Positions 12,276 through 26,659 of a stretch of DNA of 34,159 nucleotides are shown here, piece after piece. The notes below the pieces were generated by a model. The model was not told the origin of the DNA. It saw nothing but the letters and a program-made list of their open reading frames with translations, and did no database searches. Where the stretch lies: positions 1 to 34,159 of the forward strand of contig CAMCTW010000009.1 of the NCBI GenBank assembly GCA_945878645.1, in the 5' to 3' direction. This stretch comes from Bifidobacterium breve. GTDB taxonomy: Bacteria; Actinomycetota; Acidimicrobiia; Acidimicrobiales; Acidimicrobilacustridaceae. The translations under genes and the position numbers were made by a program. How positions within the stretch are numbered: the stretch's first letter is position 1; each line of letters starts with the position of its first letter.

Positions 12276-12355
12276 GCGATTCGAGGCCCATCGCCTCGTG
12301 CCTTGCTCCCGAGCCCGGATAGGCTGCGCACCAGTCATTTCACCCGGAGGGGACC

Positions 12356-12469
12356 ATGGAGCAGACGCTCGAAATCACCGAAACCGAGGCCGTCGAGACC
12401 GACGAGGCCATCGAAGAAGAAATGCTCGTCGAGGAGATCTCCATCGACGGCATGTGCGGCGTCTACTAA
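12356..12469 (+). CDS. mftA: Mycofactocin precursor peptide MftA
   Basis: Direct translation MEQTLEITETEAVETDEAIEEEMLVEEISIDGMCGVY*, with the hallmark IDGMCGVY C-terminus; SD GGAGGGG upstream; immediately upstream of mftB/mftC. Absent from the supplied ORF track because it is short. Confidence 0.96.
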   Translation: MEQTLEITETEAVETDEAIEEEMLVEEISIDGMCGVY

Positions 12470-12503
12470 GACCCGCCTGAATGTCCTCGGGCATTCACTC
12501 TTC

Positions 12504-12788
12504 ATGACCGCCGTTGCCTTCGATGCCGACCGCCCCTGGCGGCTCCACGAACGGGTCGCGCTGCGGCCCGAGCCCTTCGGCGCGCTCGCCTATCACTATG
12601 GCAATCGCCGACTCACCTTCTTGCGTTCGCCTGATCTGGTGACGCTGGTTGAGTCGCTGAATGACCAGCCTTCGGCACGCGCTGCGTTCGATGCCGCTGG
12701 TCTCGACGCCAAGCGATGGCCGTCATTTGAAAAAGCACTCACCTCACTCGCCGCTGGCGACTTTCTTGTCCTTGAAAACGTCGCGTAG
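12504..12788 (+). CDS. mftB: Mycofactocin biosynthesis chaperone MftB (RRE/PqqD-like)
   Basis: 94 aa from ATG 12504 (MTAVAFDADRPWRLHERVALRPEPFGALAYHYGNRRLTFLRSPDLVTLVESL...), typical MftB between mftA and mftC. Confidence 0.93.
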   Translation: MTAVAFDADRPWRLHERVALRPEPFGALAYHYGNRRLTFLRSPDLVTLVESLNDQPSARAAFDAAGLDAKRWPSFEKALTSLAAGDFLVLENVA

Positions 12789-12799
12789 GAAGACACCAC

Positions 12800-13933
12800 A
12801 TGACCGCGCTCACTGAACAACTCGCCGAGGGACTCAACTCCCCCATCTGTCTCACCTGGGAATGGACCTACGCCTGCGATCTGCAGTGCGTGCACTGTCT
12901 GTCGTCATCGGGCCGTCGTGATCCCGACGAGTTGTCGACCGAACAGATGAAGGACGTCGTCGACCAGCTCGCCGAGATGCAGGTGTTCTACGTCAACATC
13001 GGCGGCGGCGAGCCCATGCTGCGTCCCGACTTCTTCGAGATCGTCGAGTACTGCGTCGAAAAGGGTGTTGGCGTGAAGTTCTCGACCAACGGTGGTCGCA
13101 TCACCGCCGAGACCGCCAAGCGTCTGGCGTCGATGAACTACGTCGACATTCAGATCTCGCTTGATGGTGTCGACGAAGTAACCAACGACGCGGTGCGCGG
13201 TGAAGGCACCTACGCCCGAGTTCGCACCGCCATGAACCACTTGCGCGATGCCGACTTCGGTCAGTTCAAGCTTTCTGTCGTCATGACTCGCGAGAACGTT
13301 GAGCAGGTTGACGCGTACGAGGCGCTCGCCAACGAATACGGCGCCGAGTTGCGACTCACCCGCTTCCGTCCGTCCGGCCGCGGCATCGAGACCTGGCACG
13401 ACCTGCATCCGACGCAGGCACAACAGGTTGAGCTCTACCACTGGCTTCTGGCCCGTCCCCAGGTGCTCACCGGCGATTCGTTCTTCCATCTCTCTGCACT
13501 CGGCGAACCGCTTCCTGGTCTCAACCTCTGCGGTGCTGGTCGCGTTGTGTGTCTGATCGATCCGGTTGGCGACGTGTTCGCCTGCCCGTTCGTCCTACAC
13601 GACGAGTTCAAGGCCGGTTCGATCCACGGCGAAGGCGGCTTCCGTGCCGTGTGGCAAACATCCGATCTCTTCACCTCATTGCGCGAGCCCTCGAACCCGG
13701 GCGCCTGCGGTTCCTGCGGAAGTTTCGATGCGTGCGGTGGTGGCTGCATGGCGACCAAGTTCTTCACTGGCCTGCCGCTTGACGCTCCCGATCCGGAGTG
13801 CGTGTTCGGTCATGGTGAAACAGCGCTGGCCGAACTCGAAGCCAACGGCGGCGCCGTTCGCCCCGGCGTCAGCAAGGATCACTCGAAGCCGATCGGCTTC
13901 GGCAAAAAGCGCATCCCGGTTTCAATCCTCTGA
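12800..13933 (+). CDS. mftC: Mycofactocin radical SAM maturase MftC
   Basis: Radical SAM CxxxCxxC in 'WTYACDLQCVHCLSSSG', SPASM-type cysteines 'CGAGRVVCLIDPVGDVFACPFV...CGSCGSFDACGGGC', next to mftA/B. Confidence 0.97.
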   Translation: MTALTEQLAEGLNSPICLTWEWTYACDLQCVHCLSSSGRRDPDELSTEQMKDVVDQLAEMQVFYVNIGGGEPMLRPDFFEIVEYCVEKGVGVKFSTNGGRITAETAKRLASMNYVDIQISLDGVDEVTNDAVRGEGTYARVRTAMNHLRDADFGQFKLSVVMTRENVEQVDAYEALANEYGAELRLTRFRPSGRGIETWHDLHPTQAQQVELYHWLLARPQVLTGDSFFHLSALGEPLPGLNLCGAGRVVCLIDPVGDVFACPFVLHDEFKAGSIHGEGGFRAVWQTSDLFTSLREPSNPGACGSCGSFDACGGGCMATKFFTGLPLDAPDPECVFGHGETALAELEANGGAVRPGVSKDHSKPIGFGKKRIPVSIL

Positions 13934-14201: not shown

Positions 14202-15377
14202 TTACTTGTCGCCCAGAGTGACGAAGAAATCGCGCGGGGCGACCACATCGTCGGGCGTGAGTTCGCTGATATGCGACTTGCCGAGGCCAAGCAGGCATGA
14301 GTCGATGCCGCCGTGCAGGATGTCGAGCACGTTCTCGACGCCGGCCTGACCATTGGCAGCGAGACCCCACAAGTACGCACGACCGATCATCACGGCCTTC
14401 GCTCCCATAGCAACGGCCTTCACAACATCGCTGCCGCGACGAATACCGCCGTCGAGCACAACATCGATGTCGTTACCGACTGCAGCAACAATTGCCGGGA
14501 GCACACGAATTGGCGATGGTGTTCCGTCGAGGTTGTTGCCACCGTGGTTCGAAACGGAAAGGCCCGTGGCACCAAGGTCACGAACGCGTTTGGCGTCGTC
14601 GACACGGCACACGCCCTTGATGACAAACGGTCCGTCCCACTGCGAACGCAACCATGCGATGTCTTCCCAACTGGGAGGAGGCATCTGCATCCACTCGTAG
14701 TACGCACCAAAGAATGCGGGCGGCTTCTGGCCGGGGTGCGCCATGTTCGGCGCACTGAGGTCGGGAAGCTTGCCGGTCTTGAGATAGGCGATGAGCCACT
14801 TGGGCTTTGACAGTGCTTGCGGCGACAACTTGATCATCGTCTTGAGATCAAGTTTCTCGGGGATCCAGGGGCTACCCCAGTCGCGACCGTTCGAGAAGGT
14901 CCAGTCGAGCGTGAGGATGATGCCCTTGGCGCCGGCGGCCTTGGCGCGCTCAAGGCGCTGCACCATGACGTCGCGGCCACCGCTCCAGTACATCTGGAAA
15001 AGCAATTGCGAGTTCACCGCAGCGACTTCTTCCATCGACTTGCTGCCGAATGAACTGAGACCCATCGGGATGCCGCGGTTGGCGGCGGCGCGCCCGACAG
15101 CAACCTCACCGTCGGGATGCACGGCCTGTACGCCCGTGGGCGAAATGATCACGGGCATCGAAATATCGAGACCGAACACCGAAGTGTTCATCGAACGTTC
15201 GGCCTGAAGACCAGCGACATGAGGGGCGAGTCCGAGTTGATCGAACGAGGTCAGGTTGCCGTTAAGCGACAAGCCCTTTTCGGCACCACCGATGATGGCG
15301 CCATAGACCGACTTCGGCAGACGCTTCTCGGCCCGGTGCTGTGCCACGGCAACAGTTTCAAACCACTTATTGGCCAT
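14202..15377 (-). CDS. mftD: Mycofactocin system FMN-dependent (alpha-hydroxy-acid dehydrogenase type) protein MftD
   Basis: 'MANKWFETVAVAQHRAEKRLPKSVYGAIIGGAEKGL', 'GLSVSNHGGNNLDGTPSPIRVLPAIV', 'LDGGIRRGSDVVKAVAMGAKAVMIGRAYLWGL'. Confidence 0.95.
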   Translation of the reverse strand: MANKWFETVAVAQHRAEKRLPKSVYGAIIGGAEKGLSLNGNLTSFDQLGLAPHVAGLQAERSMNTSVFGLDISMPVIISPTGVQAVHPDGEVAVGRAAANRGIPMGLSSFGSKSMEEVAAVNSQLLFQMYWSGGRDVMVQRLERAKAAGAKGIILTLDWTFSNGRDWGSPWIPEKLDLKTMIKLSPQALSKPKWLIAYLKTGKLPDLSAPNMAHPGQKPPAFFGAYYEWMQMPPPSWEDIAWLRSQWDGPFVIKGVCRVDDAKRVRDLGATGLSVSNHGGNNLDGTPSPIRVLPAIVAAVGNDIDVVLDGGIRRGSDVVKAVAMGAKAVMIGRAYLWGLAANGQAGVENVLDILHGGIDSCLLGLGKSHISELTPDDVVAPRDFFVTLGDK

Positions 15378-15444
15378 CTCAGCCCTCCCAGAACGAAGGT
15401 GAACTCTACCGGGACGCCCCGATCAGGCCCCATTCGGCCGTCAG

Positions 15445-16413
15445 TCACCAAAAAATATGGTGACCATCGTTCGGATCATCAGGAGTGAGCACCCCGAATT
15501 CCTGCCGAACCTCTTCGAGTGGGCGTTCCGCTAACAGGAGATGATCGACAAACGCGAAATCTCCTGTGGTTTTCGCCCCACGCTCAAATTCCTGGCCGAG
15601 GAGTTCCGCAGCCCCCGGCCTCGCCAACGTGTACTCGCTTTCGACGATGTCATCGATCGTTCCCAGCCCCGCCTCGTGCACCACCAACGGAGAAAAGAAC
15701 GCAAACGTATTCACGGGGTTGTCGTCCATTGCCATTTGGAATGCGCCAAGGGCAATCTCACCTGGGCCCGTCGGAGCAATGCCCGAGATCACGTGAATCA
15801 TGTCGTGATCAAAATACAGATACGTATTCGGCGTTACTTCGGTTCCGGGAACCGCGAATCCATAGGTTCGGTAGAACTCACTGAGCGACCAACCGACGGT
15901 TCCTTCGGGCAGTGTGTGAAAACGTTCGATGCGCTCTTGAAGTTCAGGATCGAGTTTCGGGGTTTCTACTGCTCGATCGCGGAAAGCGACCTCAGAACGA
16001 TCTACTGCGAACGCGTTGAAAAATCGATCGAAATCACTCTTCGCTTTTTCTACGCCCTCGTCGATGGCGGTTCGGAAAATTTGTACTTCTTCGGGCGAAG
16101 AACCCAAGGCTGCGCTGTAGGACTCTGTGGCTCGCACTTGCTCATCAGTGAGCGGATGGCGACACATTTCAAGGGTGAACATGACTTCACCAAATCGACG
16201 ACGAGCGCCAGCGGTCGTGATGACGGCTGCGACCTCCGCCGACGACAGCGGCGAAAGGCCGGCTGGGTCAAGGTCTGGGCGCTGCCATAAGTGAGCAGTG
16301 ATCGCCCGCAACACCGCGAGTTGTTCATCCGTTGCACCGCCGTCCACATCAATAGCTCCAACGAGCCCACGAACCATCGGTTCAACAAGTTCAGGTGAAA
16401 CAAGCAACGCCAT
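15445..16413 (-). CDS. TerB-like + Coq4-like fusion protein (paralogue 1)
   Basis: N-terminus 'VRGLVGAIDVDGGATDEQLAVLRAITAHLW' is TerB-like; C-terminal half 'LPEGTVGWSLSEFYRTYGF...HDMIHVISGIAPTGPGEIALGAF' matches the Coq4 HDxxH-x11-E pattern. Start at ATG 16413. Confidence 0.72.
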   Translation of the reverse strand: MALLVSPELVEPMVRGLVGAIDVDGGATDEQLAVLRAITAHLWQRPDLDPAGLSPLSSAEVAAVITTAGARRRFGEVMFTLEMCRHPLTDEQVRATESYSAALGSSPEEVQIFRTAIDEGVEKAKSDFDRFFNAFAVDRSEVAFRDRAVETPKLDPELQERIERFHTLPEGTVGWSLSEFYRTYGFAVPGTEVTPNTYLYFDHDMIHVISGIAPTGPGEIALGAFQMAMDDNPVNTFAFFSPLVVHEAGLGTIDDIVESEYTLARPGAAELLGQEFERGAKTTGDFAFVDHLLLAERPLEEVRQEFGVLTPDDPNDGHHIFW

Positions 16414-16464
16414 ATCCGCACGCTTTCTTATGCGAACTTGCACGCTGCCGCCCGCTACTTGTGT

Positions 16465-17433
16465 CTACCAGAACAGGTGATGACCATCGTTCGGGTTGGT
16501 TGGGGTGAGGACACCGAACTCGGTACGGATGTCAGCCAACGGCCGATCAGCCATAGCGAAGTGGTCGATCCGAGAGAAGTCGGCGCGGCATTCGCCACCC
16601 CGGACAATCTCAGCAGCCATCAGTTCGGCCGCTCCGGGCCGAGCCAAGATCCCCTGCTCGGCTTTGACCTTGTTTGAATCACCGAAGCCCGCTTCATGAA
16701 CGATGAGCGAGGCAAGAAGCGCCGACCGGTTCACTGCGTCGTCGGCCATTCCCATGAGGAATGCACTGAGCGCGACTTCGGCTTCGGCCGTGGTCCCCAT
16801 TCCAGAAATCACATGGGTCATGTCATGGCCCACATAGAAGTGATTCATCGGCGAGGCTTCCACGCCAGGCAAGGGCAGGCCGGCGATGTCATAGAACTCG
16901 ACAAACGCGTGGCCAAGCGTGCCAGGTGCACAGGAACGCAACTTCTCGATGCGGGTGACAAGTACCGGTTCACTTGCGCCGTCGATAGCTACCGCATCAC
17001 GAAGCGATGGTTCGACTCGCTCGTTGGTGTTCCCCAGAAGGAATCTTGCGAAGTCCGCCTTCGCTTGTTCGGTTCCTTGGTCGACCATCGTGCGAAACAG
17101 CGCGGCATCAGGACCAACAATGCCGATCGCGCGTTCGTAATCTCCCGCACGTTCAAGTTGCGCGTCAGTGAGCGGGTGACGGCAGGCTTCGAGCGTCACG
17201 ATGAGTTCTTGAAAATGGCGGCGATCGGTCGGTGACGTAACGATTGCCGCGAGTTGTTGCGGGGCGAGTGGCGTCTGCGCACGCAGATCAAGATCGGATC
17301 GATGCCAAACCTGCCCGGCAATTGCCTTCAACACCAAAAATTGTTCATCGGTTGGTCCGCCGTCAACATCGCACGCGCCGAGCAAACCAGCGACAAATGG
17401 CTCAACAAGTTCGGGCAAAAGCGCTAGTGACAC
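16465..17433 (-). CDS. TerB-like + Coq4-like fusion protein (paralogue 2)
   Basis: 'VAGLLGACDVDGGPTDEQFLVLKAIAGQVW' and 'CAPGTLGHAFVEFYDIAGL...HDMTHVISGMGTTAEAEVALSAF'; shares the C-terminus NPNDGHHLFW with paralogue 1 (DPNDGHHIFW). GTG start. Confidence 0.72.
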   Translation of the reverse strand: MSLALLPELVEPFVAGLLGACDVDGGPTDEQFLVLKAIAGQVWHRSDLDLRAQTPLAPQQLAAIVTSPTDRRHFQELIVTLEACRHPLTDAQLERAGDYERAIGIVGPDAALFRTMVDQGTEQAKADFARFLLGNTNERVEPSLRDAVAIDGASEPVLVTRIEKLRSCAPGTLGHAFVEFYDIAGLPLPGVEASPMNHFYVGHDMTHVISGMGTTAEAEVALSAFLMGMADDAVNRSALLASLIVHEAGFGDSNKVKAEQGILARPGAAELMAAEIVRGGECRADFSRIDHFAMADRPLADIRTEFGVLTPTNPNDGHHLFW

Positions 17434-17531: not shown

Positions 17532-18644
17532 ATGGAATCCGCGCTTGCCATGGCCGAACTGGCCGAACTCATTGCTGCAATCAATACCGACGCCGACGAT
17601 CCGCGTTGGAACTTTGATTCCGATCTTGATCGCGCGTCGTATCGAGAATTCGCAATGCATTGTTTGCACCATTCACTGCAGTTCTGGCTCGAGGCCGACC
17701 CGCTGCGACCGCGATGGAATCGTTGGTTCATGCCAAACAAAAAGTTACTCGGCGATAACCCCGACACCGTGTACTACGGGACTGTTATCGACCCCACGAA
17801 GTCGTATCGAATTCGCGGCAACATCGAGAACGCTTGTTACACGTCATTCACCGTTGAAATCGGCACGGCCGGCGGCACCATGTCGCAGAAACTCGGCCAC
17901 ACGCTCAACAACACCGAATTCGAGGTTGACGCGGCAGGCAACTACGAACTCATTGCGTCACCGCAAGGCAGCGGACCGAACTGGTTGCGGCTCGATCCTG
18001 AAGCCGGTTCCATCACCACTCGCCACTATTTCGAGTGGACGCGTTGCGCCGCGCTCGATCCGAGCCTCCATATTCCGCTCTTGATTGAACCGATTGACGA
18101 TCCCGGTCCGCCTCCGGTGCCCGACGATGCTGCAGTGGCCGCCAACATTCGCCGTGCCATCACGTTCCTCCGCTCGGTTACCGCCGACTGGGGTCATAAC
18201 CCAATGCCTCCTGGCGCGATTCCCTGGGTATCAGCCGAACCGAACGCGTTCACTAATCCACCCGCCCACGACGGCAATCTCGGTATTGGTTACGCGGCCA
18301 CCGATAACATCTACCGATCGGCTCGATGGAAGTTGGCGCCCGACGAGGCGCTCGAGATTCGTGGAAGTTGGCCACGGTGCACATTTGCCAACATTGTGTT
18401 GTTCAACAATCACATGCAGACGCCGAACTACGACCGACGGCTCGTGTCGCTCAACCGAGTGCAGACCGAGGTTGCTGACGACGGTTCGTGGCGAATGATC
18501 CTCGCCCACTCCGATCCTGGACTCCCCAACTGGCTCGATACTCGTGGCCTCGAACACGGCACGATGTTCTGGCGATTCCTCATACCGACCGAACCGCTCA
18601 CGCAGCTCGAAACTCGGGTCGTGAAATTCTCTGACCTTTCCTGA
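17532..18644 (+). CDS. DUF1214-domain protein (paralogue A)
   Basis: 'NPDTVYYGTVIDPTKSYRIRGN...YTSFTVE', 'ITTRHYFEW', 'LAHSDPGLPNWLDTRGLEHGTMFWRF'; TAGGGGGAACAATG start. Confidence 0.8.
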   Translation: MESALAMAELAELIAAINTDADDPRWNFDSDLDRASYREFAMHCLHHSLQFWLEADPLRPRWNRWFMPNKKLLGDNPDTVYYGTVIDPTKSYRIRGNIENACYTSFTVEIGTAGGTMSQKLGHTLNNTEFEVDAAGNYELIASPQGSGPNWLRLDPEAGSITTRHYFEWTRCAALDPSLHIPLLIEPIDDPGPPPVPDDAAVAANIRRAITFLRSVTADWGHNPMPPGAIPWVSAEPNAFTNPPAHDGNLGIGYAATDNIYRSARWKLAPDEALEIRGSWPRCTFANIVLFNNHMQTPNYDRRLVSLNRVQTEVADDGSWRMILAHSDPGLPNWLDTRGLEHGTMFWRFLIPTEPLTQLETRVVKFSDLS

Positions 18645-19222: not shown

Positions 19223-20341
19223 TCAGACGAGATCGGATGTGAGGTCTGCGAACTTCACGACCTCGCATGTGGGCTTCTCGATCTCACCTTCAGGCAAGAA
19301 GAAGCGGAAAAACATTGTACCGAGATTGCGACCTTCGGTATCGATCCAGTTGGCGTGACCGGGGTCGGAATGAGCCAGCACAAGTGTGAAGGTTCCGTCG
19401 GCGTTCAACGTGGTGTTGGCACGGTTACGACTGACCTGACGGTTCACGTAGTCGTACATCTGTGACCAACGGTTCCAGAGGCAGAGGTTGGCGAACACAC
19501 ATTCGGGCCAGCGACCGCGAATCACGAGTGCTTCGTCGTCACCAATCAAATACGGCGCCATGGAATAGGCCGCGTCGAACGCCGCGAATGCCATGTTGCC
19601 AGGCACAATCGGTTGCGGAAGTTCATTCGGTACACGAGAGACAAACGGAATGGGTGTGTCTTCCGAGGGTGCGACCGAAGCAACGGTCTTGCTGCGCACA
19701 TGGTTGATAACGCGCTGCAACCCTTCTGACACTCGTTCGTCATTCCAACGGGGCGGGGCGGGAACCTTGGTGACCGCTTCAATGCTGATCGGCACATGCA
19801 ATGTCTGCGATGCCGACGATGACCATGGGAACTCGAAATAATGGCGAGTGGTGATCCGTCCACCGTCGGTCGGAATCTCAAGCCAGTTGCGATTGGCTTT
19901 GGCCCCGCCGAGGCGAATCTCGTAATTGCCGTCGGCATCAATGTCCATCTCGGTGTCATTCAGAACACCAGAGGTATGTGTTGCGTACGAACCGTCGGCT
20001 GCGCCGGCTTCCATCGTGAACGAGGTGTAGACCGCGCCAGCAATATTTCCGCGAACGATGTATTCATTGTTCGGAGCGACTGGCGTCTCGAAATAGACGG
20101 CATCGGAATTGTCGCCGGTGAATGAACGGGTCGGCGACACGATGCGATTGAAAACCGGGCGCTGCGGATCGAACTCCTGATGGGAATACAGCGCGCTCTG
20201 GAGAATGTGGGTGAGATTACGGAATCCCTCGGCCACGTCGTCATCGGTCATGACCGGGCCCGGAACCACCCATTCCTCCCCTGCCTGCTGCAGCAGTGCC
20301 ACTAATTCGTTGTACTTCTCTCGCGACTTGAGCTCGCCCAT
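19223..20341 (-). CDS. DUF1214-domain protein (paralogue B)
   Basis: 'NSDAVYFETPVAPNNEYIVRGNIAGAVYTSFTMEAG', 'ITTRHYFEF', 'LAHSDPGHANWIDTEGRNLGTMFFRFFLP'; AAGGGGGAAGACATG start. Confidence 0.8.
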   Translation of the reverse strand: MGELKSREKYNELVALLQQAGEEWVVPGPVMTDDDVAEGFRNLTHILQSALYSHQEFDPQRPVFNRIVSPTRSFTGDNSDAVYFETPVAPNNEYIVRGNIAGAVYTSFTMEAGAADGSYATHTSGVLNDTEMDIDADGNYEIRLGGAKANRNWLEIPTDGGRITTRHYFEFPWSSSASQTLHVPISIEAVTKVPAPPRWNDERVSEGLQRVINHVRSKTVASVAPSEDTPIPFVSRVPNELPQPIVPGNMAFAAFDAAYSMAPYLIGDDEALVIRGRWPECVFANLCLWNRWSQMYDYVNRQVSRNRANTTLNADGTFTLVLAHSDPGHANWIDTEGRNLGTMFFRFFLPEGEIEKPTCEVVKFADLTSDLV

Positions 20342-20453
20342 GTCTTCCCCCTTGAAAACGTCAGGGATGCATCCTCGCGAAGATTGGCCCGGCCTGCACA
20401 CAAGCGCCTCAATCGGTTTGGGAGGCTACGGTCGGCTCCGTCAAGGGGGACAT

Positions 20454-21787: not shown

Positions 21788-22597
21788 ATGGCTCGTGAAC
21801 ATCCTGTTGCCGTTATTACCGGAGCAGCTCGGGGAATCGGGGCGGCGACCGCGGCCCGGCTCGCCGCGCGCGGCTTCACCGTGGCACTGATCGACCTTCC
21901 GCTGGAATCGCCGGGACGCCATGGTGAGATCCCTGGCCCCTATCGCCCCGCCCACGGACAAGACCTCGATGAAGCGGCTGCGGCATGTAACGGCCGCGGT
22001 CACGCCCACGCCGCTGACGTTCGCGATCCCGAAGCACTAGCTCGCGTCATCGACACCGTTGTCGCACATCACGGTTCAATCGATGTTGTTGTTGCTGCCG
22101 CTGGTGCCGTTGCTGGTGGCGTCCCGCTTTGGGAAACCGAGGACGACACATGGCGAACGATGATCGATATCAACCTCACCGGCGTGTTCAACATCGCTCG
22201 CGCAGCATTGCCCTCGATGCTCAACGCTCCCTTGCCGCGTAACGGTCGATTTGTCGCCGTTGCTTCCGCCGCTGCCCACCACGGACTTCCGCAACTTGCT
22301 GCTTACTCCGCCGCCAAACACGGTGTTGCCGGATTGGTCAAAGCACTTTCTGCCGAACTTGCCGACAGCGGTGTTACCGCCAACGCGGTGTGCCCCGGTT
22401 CAACCGCCACCGGAATGCTCGATGCCAGCGCGGCGATCTACGGGATGGCTGACCGCAGCGAGTTTGCCGGCCAGGCCCGCATCGGTCGCCTTATTGATCC
22501 CGATGAAATTGCCGCAACGATCGAATGGCTGTGCGTCGATGCACCCGCGGCGCTGACGGGTTCACTCATTGATATCGATGGCGGATTCCGCGCATGA
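21788..22597 (+). CDS. SDR family oxidoreductase, likely mycofactocin-coupled type
   Basis: TGAARGIG, YSAAKHG; insertion after the second strand ('LPLESPGRHGEIPGPYRPAHGQDLDEAAAAC') of the kind seen in mycofactocin-dependent SDRs; operonic with mftE/F. Confidence 0.85.
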   Translation: MAREHPVAVITGAARGIGAATAARLAARGFTVALIDLPLESPGRHGEIPGPYRPAHGQDLDEAAAACNGRGHAHAADVRDPEALARVIDTVVAHHGSIDVVVAAAGAVAGGVPLWETEDDTWRTMIDINLTGVFNIARAALPSMLNAPLPRNGRFVAVASAAAHHGLPQLAAYSAAKHGVAGLVKALSAELADSGVTANAVCPGSTATGMLDASAAIYGMADRSEFAGQARIGRLIDPDEIAATIEWLCVDAPAALTGSLIDIDGGFRA

Positions 22598-23499
22598 GTT
22601 CGTTTAACCGCGCCGCGGTCGACGCAATCTGCGCCGACGTTGTCGGACGTCGCAATGAAATCGATGTTGTCGTTGCTGCACTTGCTGCCGAACGCCATGT
22701 CTTGCTTGAAGGGCCCCCCGGAACGGGCAAGTCCTCATTGCTGCGAGCGCTTGCTCATGCGTCTGGGGTTGAACTCGTCTTCGTCGAAGGAAACGCTGAA
22801 CTCACACCGGCTCGTCTCGTAGGAACCTTCGACCCCGCTCGCGTGCTCACCGACGGCTACAGCCCCGAGGTGTTCCTCGATGGTCCGCTTGTCGATGCGT
22901 TGCGCACCGGATCGTTGTTGTACATCGAAGAGATCAATCGTGTTCCGGAAGAAACGCTCAACGTCATCATCACGGCGATGAGCGAACGCGAACTCCACAT
23001 TCCCCGCCTTGGTCGCGTCGTCGCCGAATCGGGTTTCCGGGTTGTGGCCGCAATGAATCCGTTCGACGCGGTCGGCACAGCCCGAATCTCCTCTGCCATC
23101 TACGACCGCGTTTCCCGAGTGTCGATGGGTTACCAGTCGCTGGAAGAAGAAACCGAAATCGTTGGCCGCGAGGCGAAAGGTGCGGGCGCCGGACCACTCG
23201 GCAACCGTGCGGTTCGCGTTGTGCGGGCAACACGAAACCATTCTGATGTTCGTGTCGGTTCTTCGGTTCGAGGAGCGATCGATCTCTCGCTCATCGCCGA
23301 GCAACTCGCCAACCTTCGCGAGCAATCGGTCACCGATGAAGAACTTGGACTCGATGCCGCGCTCGCGGCCCTTTCCGGCCGTATTCGCGTTCGAGAAGGT
23401 TCAGGCCGCACGCCTGAAGCAATCGTGCGCGATCTCTGGGCAGCCAATCCGCTCGAACTCGACGAACAATCACCCGGGAGTGATCCGGGAAAAGCCTGA
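22594..23499 (+). CDS. MoxR-family AAA ATPase (CbbQ/NorQ/CoxD-like)
   Basis: Walker A 'LEGPPGTGKSSLL', Walker B 'LLYIEEINRVPEETLNVIITAMSERE', 'AAMNPFDAVGTARIS'; ATGA overlap with the SDR stop. Confidence 0.9.
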   Translation: MSSFNRAAVDAICADVVGRRNEIDVVVAALAAERHVLLEGPPGTGKSSLLRALAHASGVELVFVEGNAELTPARLVGTFDPARVLTDGYSPEVFLDGPLVDALRTGSLLYIEEINRVPEETLNVIITAMSERELHIPRLGRVVAESGFRVVAAMNPFDAVGTARISSAIYDRVSRVSMGYQSLEEETEIVGREAKGAGAGPLGNRAVRVVRATRNHSDVRVGSSVRGAIDLSLIAEQLANLREQSVTDEELGLDAALAALSGRIRVREGSGRTPEAIVRDLWAANPLELDEQSPGSDPGKA

Positions 23500-23561
23500 G
23501 CCCGTCGCCCGATAACGGCGGCGGGGGCAGCCGACCCCCTCAAGCTCCTGACGAAGAGCGC

Positions 23562-24482
23562 GTGCTTGAAGGCGAAGAAGCCGAAGAAGCGTTGGCCGAG
23601 GCTGGTCGTCAATCGACGTCTCGTCGGCAAATGGAACAACACGAATCATTTCAAGAGATTTCGCCCGAAGTCGGCATCCTCGATGAAGAAGCGTTTGCCG
23701 ATGCTTTGCGCGACGATCCCGACGAGACACTCACGCTGCTGGCGGAACTCGTTGGGGCAACTGATGAGAAGTTGCGCGAGTTAGCTCGTTCGCTCGCCGG
23801 TCGAGTGGTTGTCGATGTGGTTCGCACTGGCGCACCGCGACGCCGAGGAATTGGTCGCTTACGGCACCGGCGCGCTGATCACGGTGGCGAACTCGATGTT
23901 GACCGGAGCCTTGAAACGATTGCTGCATCACGAGCACGAGGCGATGCGCCTTCGCTTGAAGATCTCACTGCCCGTGATTGGTCGAAACCCAATCTTGCCC
24001 TCTGTCTTCTCATTGATCGCAGCGGTTCAATGGGCGGTGAGCGTTTAGCGACCGCAGCCGTTGCCGCAGCCGCATCGCTATGGCGAGCACCAATCGATAC
24101 GAGCGTGATCGCATTTTCCGACGATGCCATCGTTATTGCCTCTCAAGGTTCGGGTCGCGATGCCGAGGATGTCGTCAACCAGATTTTCCGTCTTCGTGGC
24201 CATGGCACAACTGACCTGGCGTTCGCGTTTCGCACCGCAGCAGCGCAACTGGCGCGCTCATCAGCGACTCGAAAGATCACCCTGTTGCTGTCCGACGGCC
24301 GAGCTACTGCTGGCGACGACCCCACTATCGCGGCCACGAGCCTCGACGAACTCATCGTGTTGGCACCAGCCGAGGATGCCGAAAATGCGCAGGCGCTCGC
24401 CGACTCGGTAGGCGGCCGCTGCGTCATGGTCTCAGGACCGGCGCATATCCCCGAGGCATTGGCCGACGCTCTGCAGTCCTAA
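23562..24482 (+). CDS. VWA-domain protein, partner of the MoxR ATPase
   Basis: MIDAS 'CLLIDRSGSMGGERLATAAVAAAA', 'RGHGTTDLAFAFRTA', 'ITLLLSDGRAT'. GTG start; true start uncertain. Confidence 0.85.
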   Translation: MLEGEEAEEALAEAGRQSTSRRQMEQHESFQEISPEVGILDEEAFADALRDDPDETLTLLAELVGATDEKLRELARSLAGRVVVDVVRTGAPRRRGIGRLRHRRADHGGELDVDRSLETIAASRARGDAPSLEDLTARDWSKPNLALCLLIDRSGSMGGERLATAAVAAAASLWRAPIDTSVIAFSDDAIVIASQGSGRDAEDVVNQIFRLRGHGTTDLAFAFRTAAAQLARSSATRKITLLLSDGRATAGDDPTIAATSLDELIVLAPAEDAENAQALADSVGGRCVMVSGPAHIPEALADALQS

Positions 24483-24512: not shown

Positions 24513-25205
24513 ATGGTGCCAATGACTTCCGATCACATCCTCGGCGATCTCACCTGGACAGATGTTCGCGACACAACGCGCATTGTGCTGATCCCCGTCG
24601 GAAGCCTTGAACAACACGGCCCCCATCTGCCGCTCGATACCGATACTCGGATTGCAACGTCGCTGGCCGAGCATGTGTGCGAACTACGCGAGGACCTTGT
24701 TCTTGGCCCCGCGCTCACCGTCGGCGCTTCCGGTGAGCACGCGGGTTTCGAAGGTACGTTGTCGATCGGAACCGACGCCCTCACGACGGTTCTTGTTGAA
24801 CTGGCCCGTTCCGCCGACGCATTCCGCGGCGTTGTGTTCGTTAACGGGCACGGTGGCAACCGTGATGCCCTTTTGGCAGCGCGAGCGATCCTTCATCACG
24901 AGGGTCGAACCGTTGTGGCCTGGTCGCCATCGATTCCCGGTGGCGATGCCCACGCCGGCCATACCGAAACCTCAATCCTGCTTGCCCTCGATCCTGACTG
25001 CGTGCGGGTCGATGCCATCGAAGTCGGAGCCACAGCCCCACTCAACGAGTTACTTGAAGACCTGCAGGCTGGCGGCGTGAAGTCACGCAGCGCCAATGGC
25101 GTTCTTGGCGATCCCACAACAGCCACTGCCGAACATGGAAACGAAATTGTCATCACGCTTGTTGCTGATCTGGCGCGAACGATCGACAAAGTATTCACAC
25201 AATGA
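24513..25205 (+). CDS. mftE: Mycofactocin precursor peptidase MftE (creatininase family)
   Basis: 'VLIPVGSLEQHGPHLPLDTDTRIATSLAEHV', 'VNGHGGNRDALLAA', 'GDAHAGHTETSI'; ATGA overlap with mftF. Start could also be ATG 24522. Confidence 0.93.
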   Translation: MVPMTSDHILGDLTWTDVRDTTRIVLIPVGSLEQHGPHLPLDTDTRIATSLAEHVCELREDLVLGPALTVGASGEHAGFEGTLSIGTDALTTVLVELARSADAFRGVVFVNGHGGNRDALLAARAILHHEGRTVVAWSPSIPGGDAHAGHTETSILLALDPDCVRVDAIEVGATAPLNELLEDLQAGGVKSRSANGVLGDPTTATAEHGNEIVITLVADLARTIDKVFTQ

Positions 25206-26659
25206 CGACGTCTGAACTCACCGGTCTGCACGTCATCGCAGATCCGTCGCTTCAGCAACGTGAACGCGGGACTGTTCTGATTGGTGGGTCCCCACTTCGC
25301 ATTGTCCGCATTAGCGAAAAAGGCGCCGACCTCGTCGACGCACTTTTAGATGGTTCGCCCGTTCCGCCGGGAAAGGGCGCGACATCATTGGTTCGCCGAC
25401 TTCTCGATGGCGGATTGTTGCAGCCTGTACCTCAATCAACGCCATTCACCGCCGCCGATGTCACGGTTGTGATTCCTGTTCGCGGTTCGCTTGAACCGAG
25501 CCTGCTAGATGGCATCGGCGAAGTCGCGCACATCATCGTGGTTGATGATGAAAGCTCCGAACCGATCACGGTGCCATCGCACACAATGCACGGCGTAAAA
25601 GTTCGCTGCCTACGTCGCGACACCAACGGTGGTCCCGCCGCCGCGCGCAATACCGGCCTTGGCGCCGTTACCACCACTCTTGTGGCGTTTGTCGATGCCG
25701 ATTGTGTTCCTCGCGCTGGTTGGATTACTTCGTTACTCACGCAATTTGGTGATCCCAATGTTGCTGTCGTTGCGCCACGAATCACGTCAGTTGACCCATT
25801 GGGAACAGCAGATCACCCACTCCTTTCGCGTTATGAACGAGCGCATGCCTCGCTCGATCGCGGGACACAACGAGGGCGAGTGCGTGCTCGGACTCGAGTT
25901 TCCTATGTTCCGTCGGCCGCGCTCGTCTGTCGCGTCGATGCACTTCGGGGAGTCGGCGGCTTCGACGAGGCCATGACTGTTGGCGAAGACGTCGATCTGG
26001 TGTGGCGTCTCGATGAATCAGGCCACACCGTTCGCTACGAACCAAGTGTCACCGTTGGCCACCGCCACCGCACCAGCCCGTGGCCCTGGCTGCGCCGGCG
26101 CTTCGACTACGGGACGTCGGCCGGCCCGTTGGCCAAACGCCATCCCGGAGCACTGGTTCCCATCGAAGCATCGGGGTGGAGCATCGCCACTTGGGGCCTC
26201 GTTGCTGCGGGTCACCCGATTGTGGCGGGTGCCGTTGTCGGGGCCACCGCAGGAATGCTGAGCGGGAAACTCGACGCACTTTCGCGACCAATGCCTGTGG
26301 CTGCGCAACTGGCCGGTCGCGGTCATCTCAGTGCTGGTCGCACCATTGCGCAGGGTCTTGTTCGGCCCCTTTGGCCGCTGACCGCACTCGCAATCATCGT
26401 CATTCCATGGCGCCGTCTGAAACTCGCGCTTCTGGCTGCGGTGCTCGCGCCTTCGATCATCGACTGGATTCGCACTCGACCCAACATCTCGCCCGTTCCC
26501 TACGTCGCGCTGCGCCTTGCCGATGACATCGCCTATGGCGCGGGCGTATGGGTCGGTTCCGTGCGCGCCGGAACCATCGAACCACTCATTCCCGATGTCA
26601 CTAGTTGGCCGAAAGCCAGTCGCTATACGCGCTGGCGCACCAGCAAAGCTCAGCCCTAA
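25202..26659 (+). CDS. mftF: Mycofactocin glycosyltransferase MftF
   Basis: PqqD-like N-terminus, then GT2 motifs 'VTVVIPVRG', 'IIVVDDESSEPI', 'NGGPAAARNTGL', 'FVDADCVPRAGWI', 'GFDEAMTVGEDVDLVWRL'. Confidence 0.93.
   Translation: MTTSELTGLHVIADPSLQQRERGTVLIGGSPLRIVRISEKGADLVDALLDGSPVPPGKGATSLVRRLLDGGLLQPVPQSTPFTAADVTVVIPVRGSLEPSLLDGIGEVAHIIVVDDESSEPITVPSHTMHGVKVRCLRRDTNGGPAAARNTGLGAVTTTLVAFVDADCVPRAGWITSLLTQFGDPNVAVVAPRITSVDPLGTADHPLLSRYERAHASLDRGTQRGRVRARTRVSYVPSAALVCRVDALRGVGGFDEAMTVGEDVDLVWRLDESGHTVRYEPSVTVGHRHRTSPWPWLRRRFDYGTSAGPLAKRHPGALVPIEASGWSIATWGLVAAGHPIVAGAVVGATAGMLSGKLDALSRPMPVAAQLAGRGHLSAGRTIAQGLVRPLWPLTALAIIVIPWRRLKLALLAAVLAPSIIDWIRTRPNISPVPYVALRLADDIAYGAGVWVGSVRAGTIEPLIPDVTSWPKASRYTRWRTSKAQP

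Follow-up and report, generated by a model that had tools for sequence, protein, structure and literature searches.

Why do two genes encoding Coq4-like proteins lie directly upstream of mftD? The genes are in a stretch of DNA of 34,159 nucleotides, hereafter the window, that also carries a mycofactocin locus. On the forward strand are mftA (positions 12,356–12,469), encoding a 37-residue precursor peptide that ends IDGMCGVY, mftB (12,303–12,788; TIGR03967), the radical SAM maturase gene mftC (12,800–13,933; TIGR03962) and mftE with mftF (24,513–26,659; TIGR03964 and TIGR03965). The mftB reading frame as listed extends too far in the 5' direction; residue 74 is where the match to MftB begins. 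The pre-mycofactocin synthase gene, mftD, is on the reverse strand (14,202–15,377) and matches TIGR03966 with 653 bits against a cut-off of 471. A mycofactocin-coupled SDR is also encoded. Like the mycobacterial mycofactocin cluster, the window therefore has mftA–F and the SDR. Unlike that cluster, which includes MftG, the window has no MftG, mftD diverges from mftABC, and mftD is preceded by the two genes of interest, here called A and B. A record titled Bifidobacterium breve (CAMAYJ010000046.1; locus L001) is 93–100% identical to the window and is surely mislabelled.

Gene B (reverse strand, 16,465–17,433) encodes 322 residues. Gene A (reverse strand, 15,445–16,443) encodes 332 residues from a GTG at 16,443 or 322 residues from an ATG at 16,413, which is the likely start. 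The stop of B is 51 nt from this ATG, and 67 nt separate A from the start of mftD. The two proteins are 46% identical without gaps. The Coq4 signature HDxxH-x11-E occupies residues 213–229 of A (15,757–15,807, reverse strand; HDMIHVISGIAPTGPGE) and residues 203–219 of B (16,777–16,827, reverse strand; HDMTHVISGMGTTAEAE). These motifs, and the others quoted in the original prediction (LPEGTVGWSLSEFY and CAPGTLGHAFVEFY), were all found in the two reading frames. Both genes are intact, and the description of two same-strand genes bearing a Coq4 signature upstream of mftD was correct. The reading frame is retained among homologues. For both genes, dN/dS in comparisons within the host genus is ~0.07–0.2, indicative of purifying selection. 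All 22 of the aligned relatives keep the signature unchanged, as do 38 of 38 actinobacterial relatives sampled more widely. Hence, the motif is not a product of chance.

Does the motif reflect genuine kinship with Coq4? Pfam Coq4 (PF05019) is the sole family matched by either protein, at 17.0 bits for A and 22.2 bits for B. Both scores are below the curated cut-off of 22.9, and no NCBIfam family is matched by A or B. However, all 22 family members match Pfam Coq4 (best E-value 1.6e-7) and some relatives score above A and B. When a profile of the 22 sequences was compared with the PDB, only the Coq4-family structures 6E12 (E 5.2e-7) and 3MSQ (E 1.8e-6) were significant. In the alignments, the LPxGtlG segment and HDxxH-x11-E line up precisely. 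The same two structures were returned by Foldseek (probability 1.00, E 2e-6 to 1e-4) using an AlphaFold model of A (pLDDT 89, pTM 0.89). The predicted relationship is thus upheld by profile, fold and motif, if not by single-sequence Pfam scores. A and B are real, distant relatives of Coq4. Like Nostoc Alr8543 (6E12) and human COQ4, they have the LP.GtlG...-FY segment, HDxxH-x11-E and a helical fold. They differ in their low identity to the Coq4 family (~17%), in their sub-cut-off Pfam scores, in an extra N-terminal domain of ~100 residues and in being actinobacterial proteins that belong to no identified ubiquinone pathway. A and B represent a Coq4-fold branch from actinobacteria, which carries this added domain and occurs in hosts where ubiquinone is not expected. 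This branch could help to show the general role of the Coq4 metal site.

The N-terminal halves had been described as TerB-like. AlphaFold models this region, with confidence, as a helical bundle. The best sensible Foldseek matches are the TerB-like structures 2H5N and 2OU3 (probability 0.63–0.95, TM 0.48–0.63, E ~1). The N-terminal bundle with its DxDGG.T.EQ loop is the feature that A and B may share with TerB-fold proteins. In contrast to this weak structural likeness, Pfam TerB (PF05099) matched 0 of 22 family members, the PDB profile search gave nothing significant for TerB, and hhalign of the family against one TerB protein from the class returned a probability of 0.2%. We suggest only that the N-terminal half may resemble the TerB fold; the likeness is plausible and unproven.

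In Alr8543, residues of the HDxxH-E motif ligand Mg2+, adjoining a hydrophobic ligand (PMC9774615). For human COQ4, oxidative decarboxylation at ring C1 has been reported (PMC11495197). The AlphaFold model has a large overall rmsd to the Coq4 structure (11.7 Å) and, hence, ligand binding by A and B is an extrapolation from the motif region. The proteins would be soluble or membrane-peripheral, with the N-terminal bundle joined to a C-terminal Coq4-like domain in which the metal site is intact. By homology to Alr8543 and Coq4, they most likely clasp a long hydrophobic molecule, such as a prenyl or acyl chain, among their helices, the head group of that molecule lying at the HDxxH-E metal. A and B would chemically modify this molecule or present it.

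The original prediction suggested a role for A and B in the mycofactocin system, such as binding or modifying the redox head group. We assessed linkage to mftD in 21 genomes of the host genus, 14 of which have a readable junction upstream of mftD on the contig. In all 14, mftD is immediately preceded, in the same orientation, by B alone or by B followed by A. A B-type orthologue holds this place across the genus and, in most members, is alone beside mftD. The only genomes in which A intervenes between the two are G000, G145 and G306. In the window, a gene for a DUF1214-like protein (forward strand, 17,532–18,644) diverges from B across 98 nt. Two genomes (G304 and G301) have lost this gene and kept the adjacency to mftD. 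Adjacency in 14 of 14 genomes that survives such loss is more than pure accident predicts over this divergence; we count it against the reading preferred below. One genome (G309, 96% complete) has mftC and lacks any member of the family; with a contig end close to mftC, this is either a loss or an assembly gap. In G306 (L002, L092), B is interrupted; residues 188–204 (~17 codons) are missing and the frame is shifted, while the adjoining A is intact. The disrupted B is a decaying gene or an assembly error. The mycofactocin link of A and B is a positional association at the level of the genus.

Co-transcription of A and B with mftD had also been proposed. Orientation and spacing fit this proposal. 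The 67-nt spacer before mftD (reverse strand, 15,378–15,444) contains a strong ribosome-binding site and a TAnnnT element (TAGAGT in the window). Judged by eye, both are conserved in 15 of the 15 sequences compared. Hence, mftD may be transcribed alone, from its own promoter. Scanning the region for promoters and terminators gave matches at chance level.

Outside the host genus, the family occurs independently of mycofactocin. Profile searches of 296 genomes from the class detected the family in 58 and MftD, counted when above cut-off, in 41. Both are present in eight genomes, against 8.0 expected by chance, a comparison uncorrected for phylogeny in which several genomes are incomplete. One of the eight (G165) has a marginal fragment match and, in G047, G165, G254 and G285, the family gene and mftD are on separate contigs. 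In the 37 MftD genomes outside the host genus, genes of the family are absent or away from mftD. Two genomes (G028 and G119) have up to seven family copies and no MftD over the cut-off. The family is mostly found in Acidimicrobiia; a phylum-wide sample of 297 genomes contains four carriers outside the class, a thin scatter among other actinobacterial classes. In public genomes, 18 loci carry close relatives of A and B. The neighbours of other homologues are diverse and mutually unrelated (MFS, GDSL lipase, AMP-ligase/thiolase, GMC, integrase and ABC genes). Conserved operon partners outside the genus were rejected, since only common transporters (MFS, five loci) and scattered enzymes recur. 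The proposed role in the mycofactocin system is weakened by these data. Homologues distributed without regard to mft genes, the pattern that the original prediction named as refuting it, are what the class shows. The association is particular to one genus rather than general, and the support for a putative role in mycofactocin comes only from the conserved adjacency to mftD there.

The histories of mftD and B are also discordant within the genus. In two members (G311, locus L086, and G293, locus L051), mftD is 98–99% identical to the window and B is 51–52% identical. For G303, the corresponding values are 81% and 70%. A nucleotide profile of G311 against the window gave ~86–96% identity in the mftC and mftD blocks, 55–67% in B and 70–80% further out. 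This pattern is consistent with exchange of mftC–mftD between lineages without B. For A and B themselves, a tree constrained to unite the mycofactocin-linked copies in a single clade is worse by 65 log units (p-AU 0.0044). An origin of A as a tandem duplicate of B is rejected by the tree. Rather, A and B represent, on this phylogeny, two subfamilies that did not arise by recent duplication. The nearest relatives of A are in G119 and G028, from another family of the class.

The best reading of the data, to which we assign a probability of roughly 0.55, is a metal-binding, hydrophobic-ligand Coq4-like family that is locally parked at the mycofactocin locus. Such a family would work apart from mycofactocin in most hosts. 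In the host genus, a B-type copy would have become established immediately before mftD; in one sub-lineage, an A-type copy would have settled between the two. The genes would probably be expressed under conditions similar to mftD without being obligatory for mycofactocin biosynthesis or reoxidation. In this reading, homology, motif, adjacency across the genus and independence across the class are demonstrated; ligand, chemistry and co-expression are inferred. A pure neighbourhood effect is a somewhat unlikely alternative. The genes would have landed next to mftD by chance in the ancestor of the genus and been kept by synteny of the whole 15-kb region, with no functional or regulatory link. All neighbours (DUF1214a/b, MOSC, SnoaL, MoxR and VWA genes) are likewise syntenic, and both the suggested independent mftD promoter and the discordant divergence of mftD and B favour this account. 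It sits poorly with a slot and orientation that persist while B falls to ~51% identity and DUF1214a is lost from two genomes, and with an A-type insertion that likewise retained its orientation. We are doubtful that A and B are a working pair, or hetero-oligomer, for which the mft location is secondary. Pairing would suit proteins of different subfamilies, and B-then-A tandems are not confined to the genus: one is present in G119, a genome of a different family with no MftD over the cut-off, and further tandem pairs are found in G310 and L017. However, the majority of genus members, with B alone beside mftD, and the intact A next to a disrupted B in G306, indicate that pairing is not obligatory.

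A third possibility is that A and B are dedicated mycofactocin accessories that stand in for MftG. They would bind reduced mycofactocin, alter the p-hydroxyphenyl-derived head group or transfer the electrons of mycofactocin to menaquinone. In mycobacteria, MftG links mycofactocin to respiration (PMC11778925). We sought this GMC oxidoreductase using TIGR03970, run without a confirmed mycobacterial positive control, and TIGR04542, a Gordonia-only MftG model (PMC11778925). None of the 296 class genomes, host genus included, had a match over cut-off; a GMC paralogue below cut-off (E 1e-50) was detected in 11 of the 41 MftD genomes. The lack of MftG speaks for an accessory role, as does the adjacency to mftD kept in 14 genomes. 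Furthermore, menA is present in the host genome, so a menaquinone pool is likely, and Coq4 acts on p-hydroxybenzoate-derived rings (PMC11495197). However, MftG is missing class-wide, including from the 37 MftD genomes outside the genus, and its absence is not specific to genomes with the family. Hence, A and B are not an obvious MftG substitute and replacement was rejected. Chance-level co-occurrence with MftD and the discordance between mftD and B also count against an accessory. In addition, we know of no redox cofactor by which Coq4 could carry electrons. On balance, we consider the accessory role unlikely. We consider it highly improbable that, in one genus of MftG-less Acidimicrobiia, a Coq4-like metalloprotein family was recruited to link mycofactocin with the menaquinone pool or to tailor the head group. 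If true, this would be a function never before assigned to Coq4 relatives; a literature search pairing Coq4 with mycofactocin, with TerB and with actinobacteria found no relevant report and no published Coq4–mycofactocin link. By the curated models, a whole class of mycofactocin bacteria is without MftG, the enzyme known for mycofactocin reoxidation.

Other features of these loci were also observed. In the window, a second DUF1214-like protein is encoded at 19,223–20,401 and, together with the product of 17,532–18,644, flanks a MOSC protein. At locus L007, from another genus, a DUF1214 gene is also near genes of the A and B family. Between the mycofactocin SDR gene and mftE, at 22,594–24,482, are genes encoding an AAA ATPase of the MoxR type and a chelatase/VWA-like protein. 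Their synteny is conserved throughout the genus. In G311 and G293, the mftC product is 98–99% identical to that of the window and the mftF product is 53% identical. Finally, a third, more distant family member is encoded in the genome of the window (G000:C43:2413-3342; L052), with an AMP-binding ligase on one side and a thiolase on the other.
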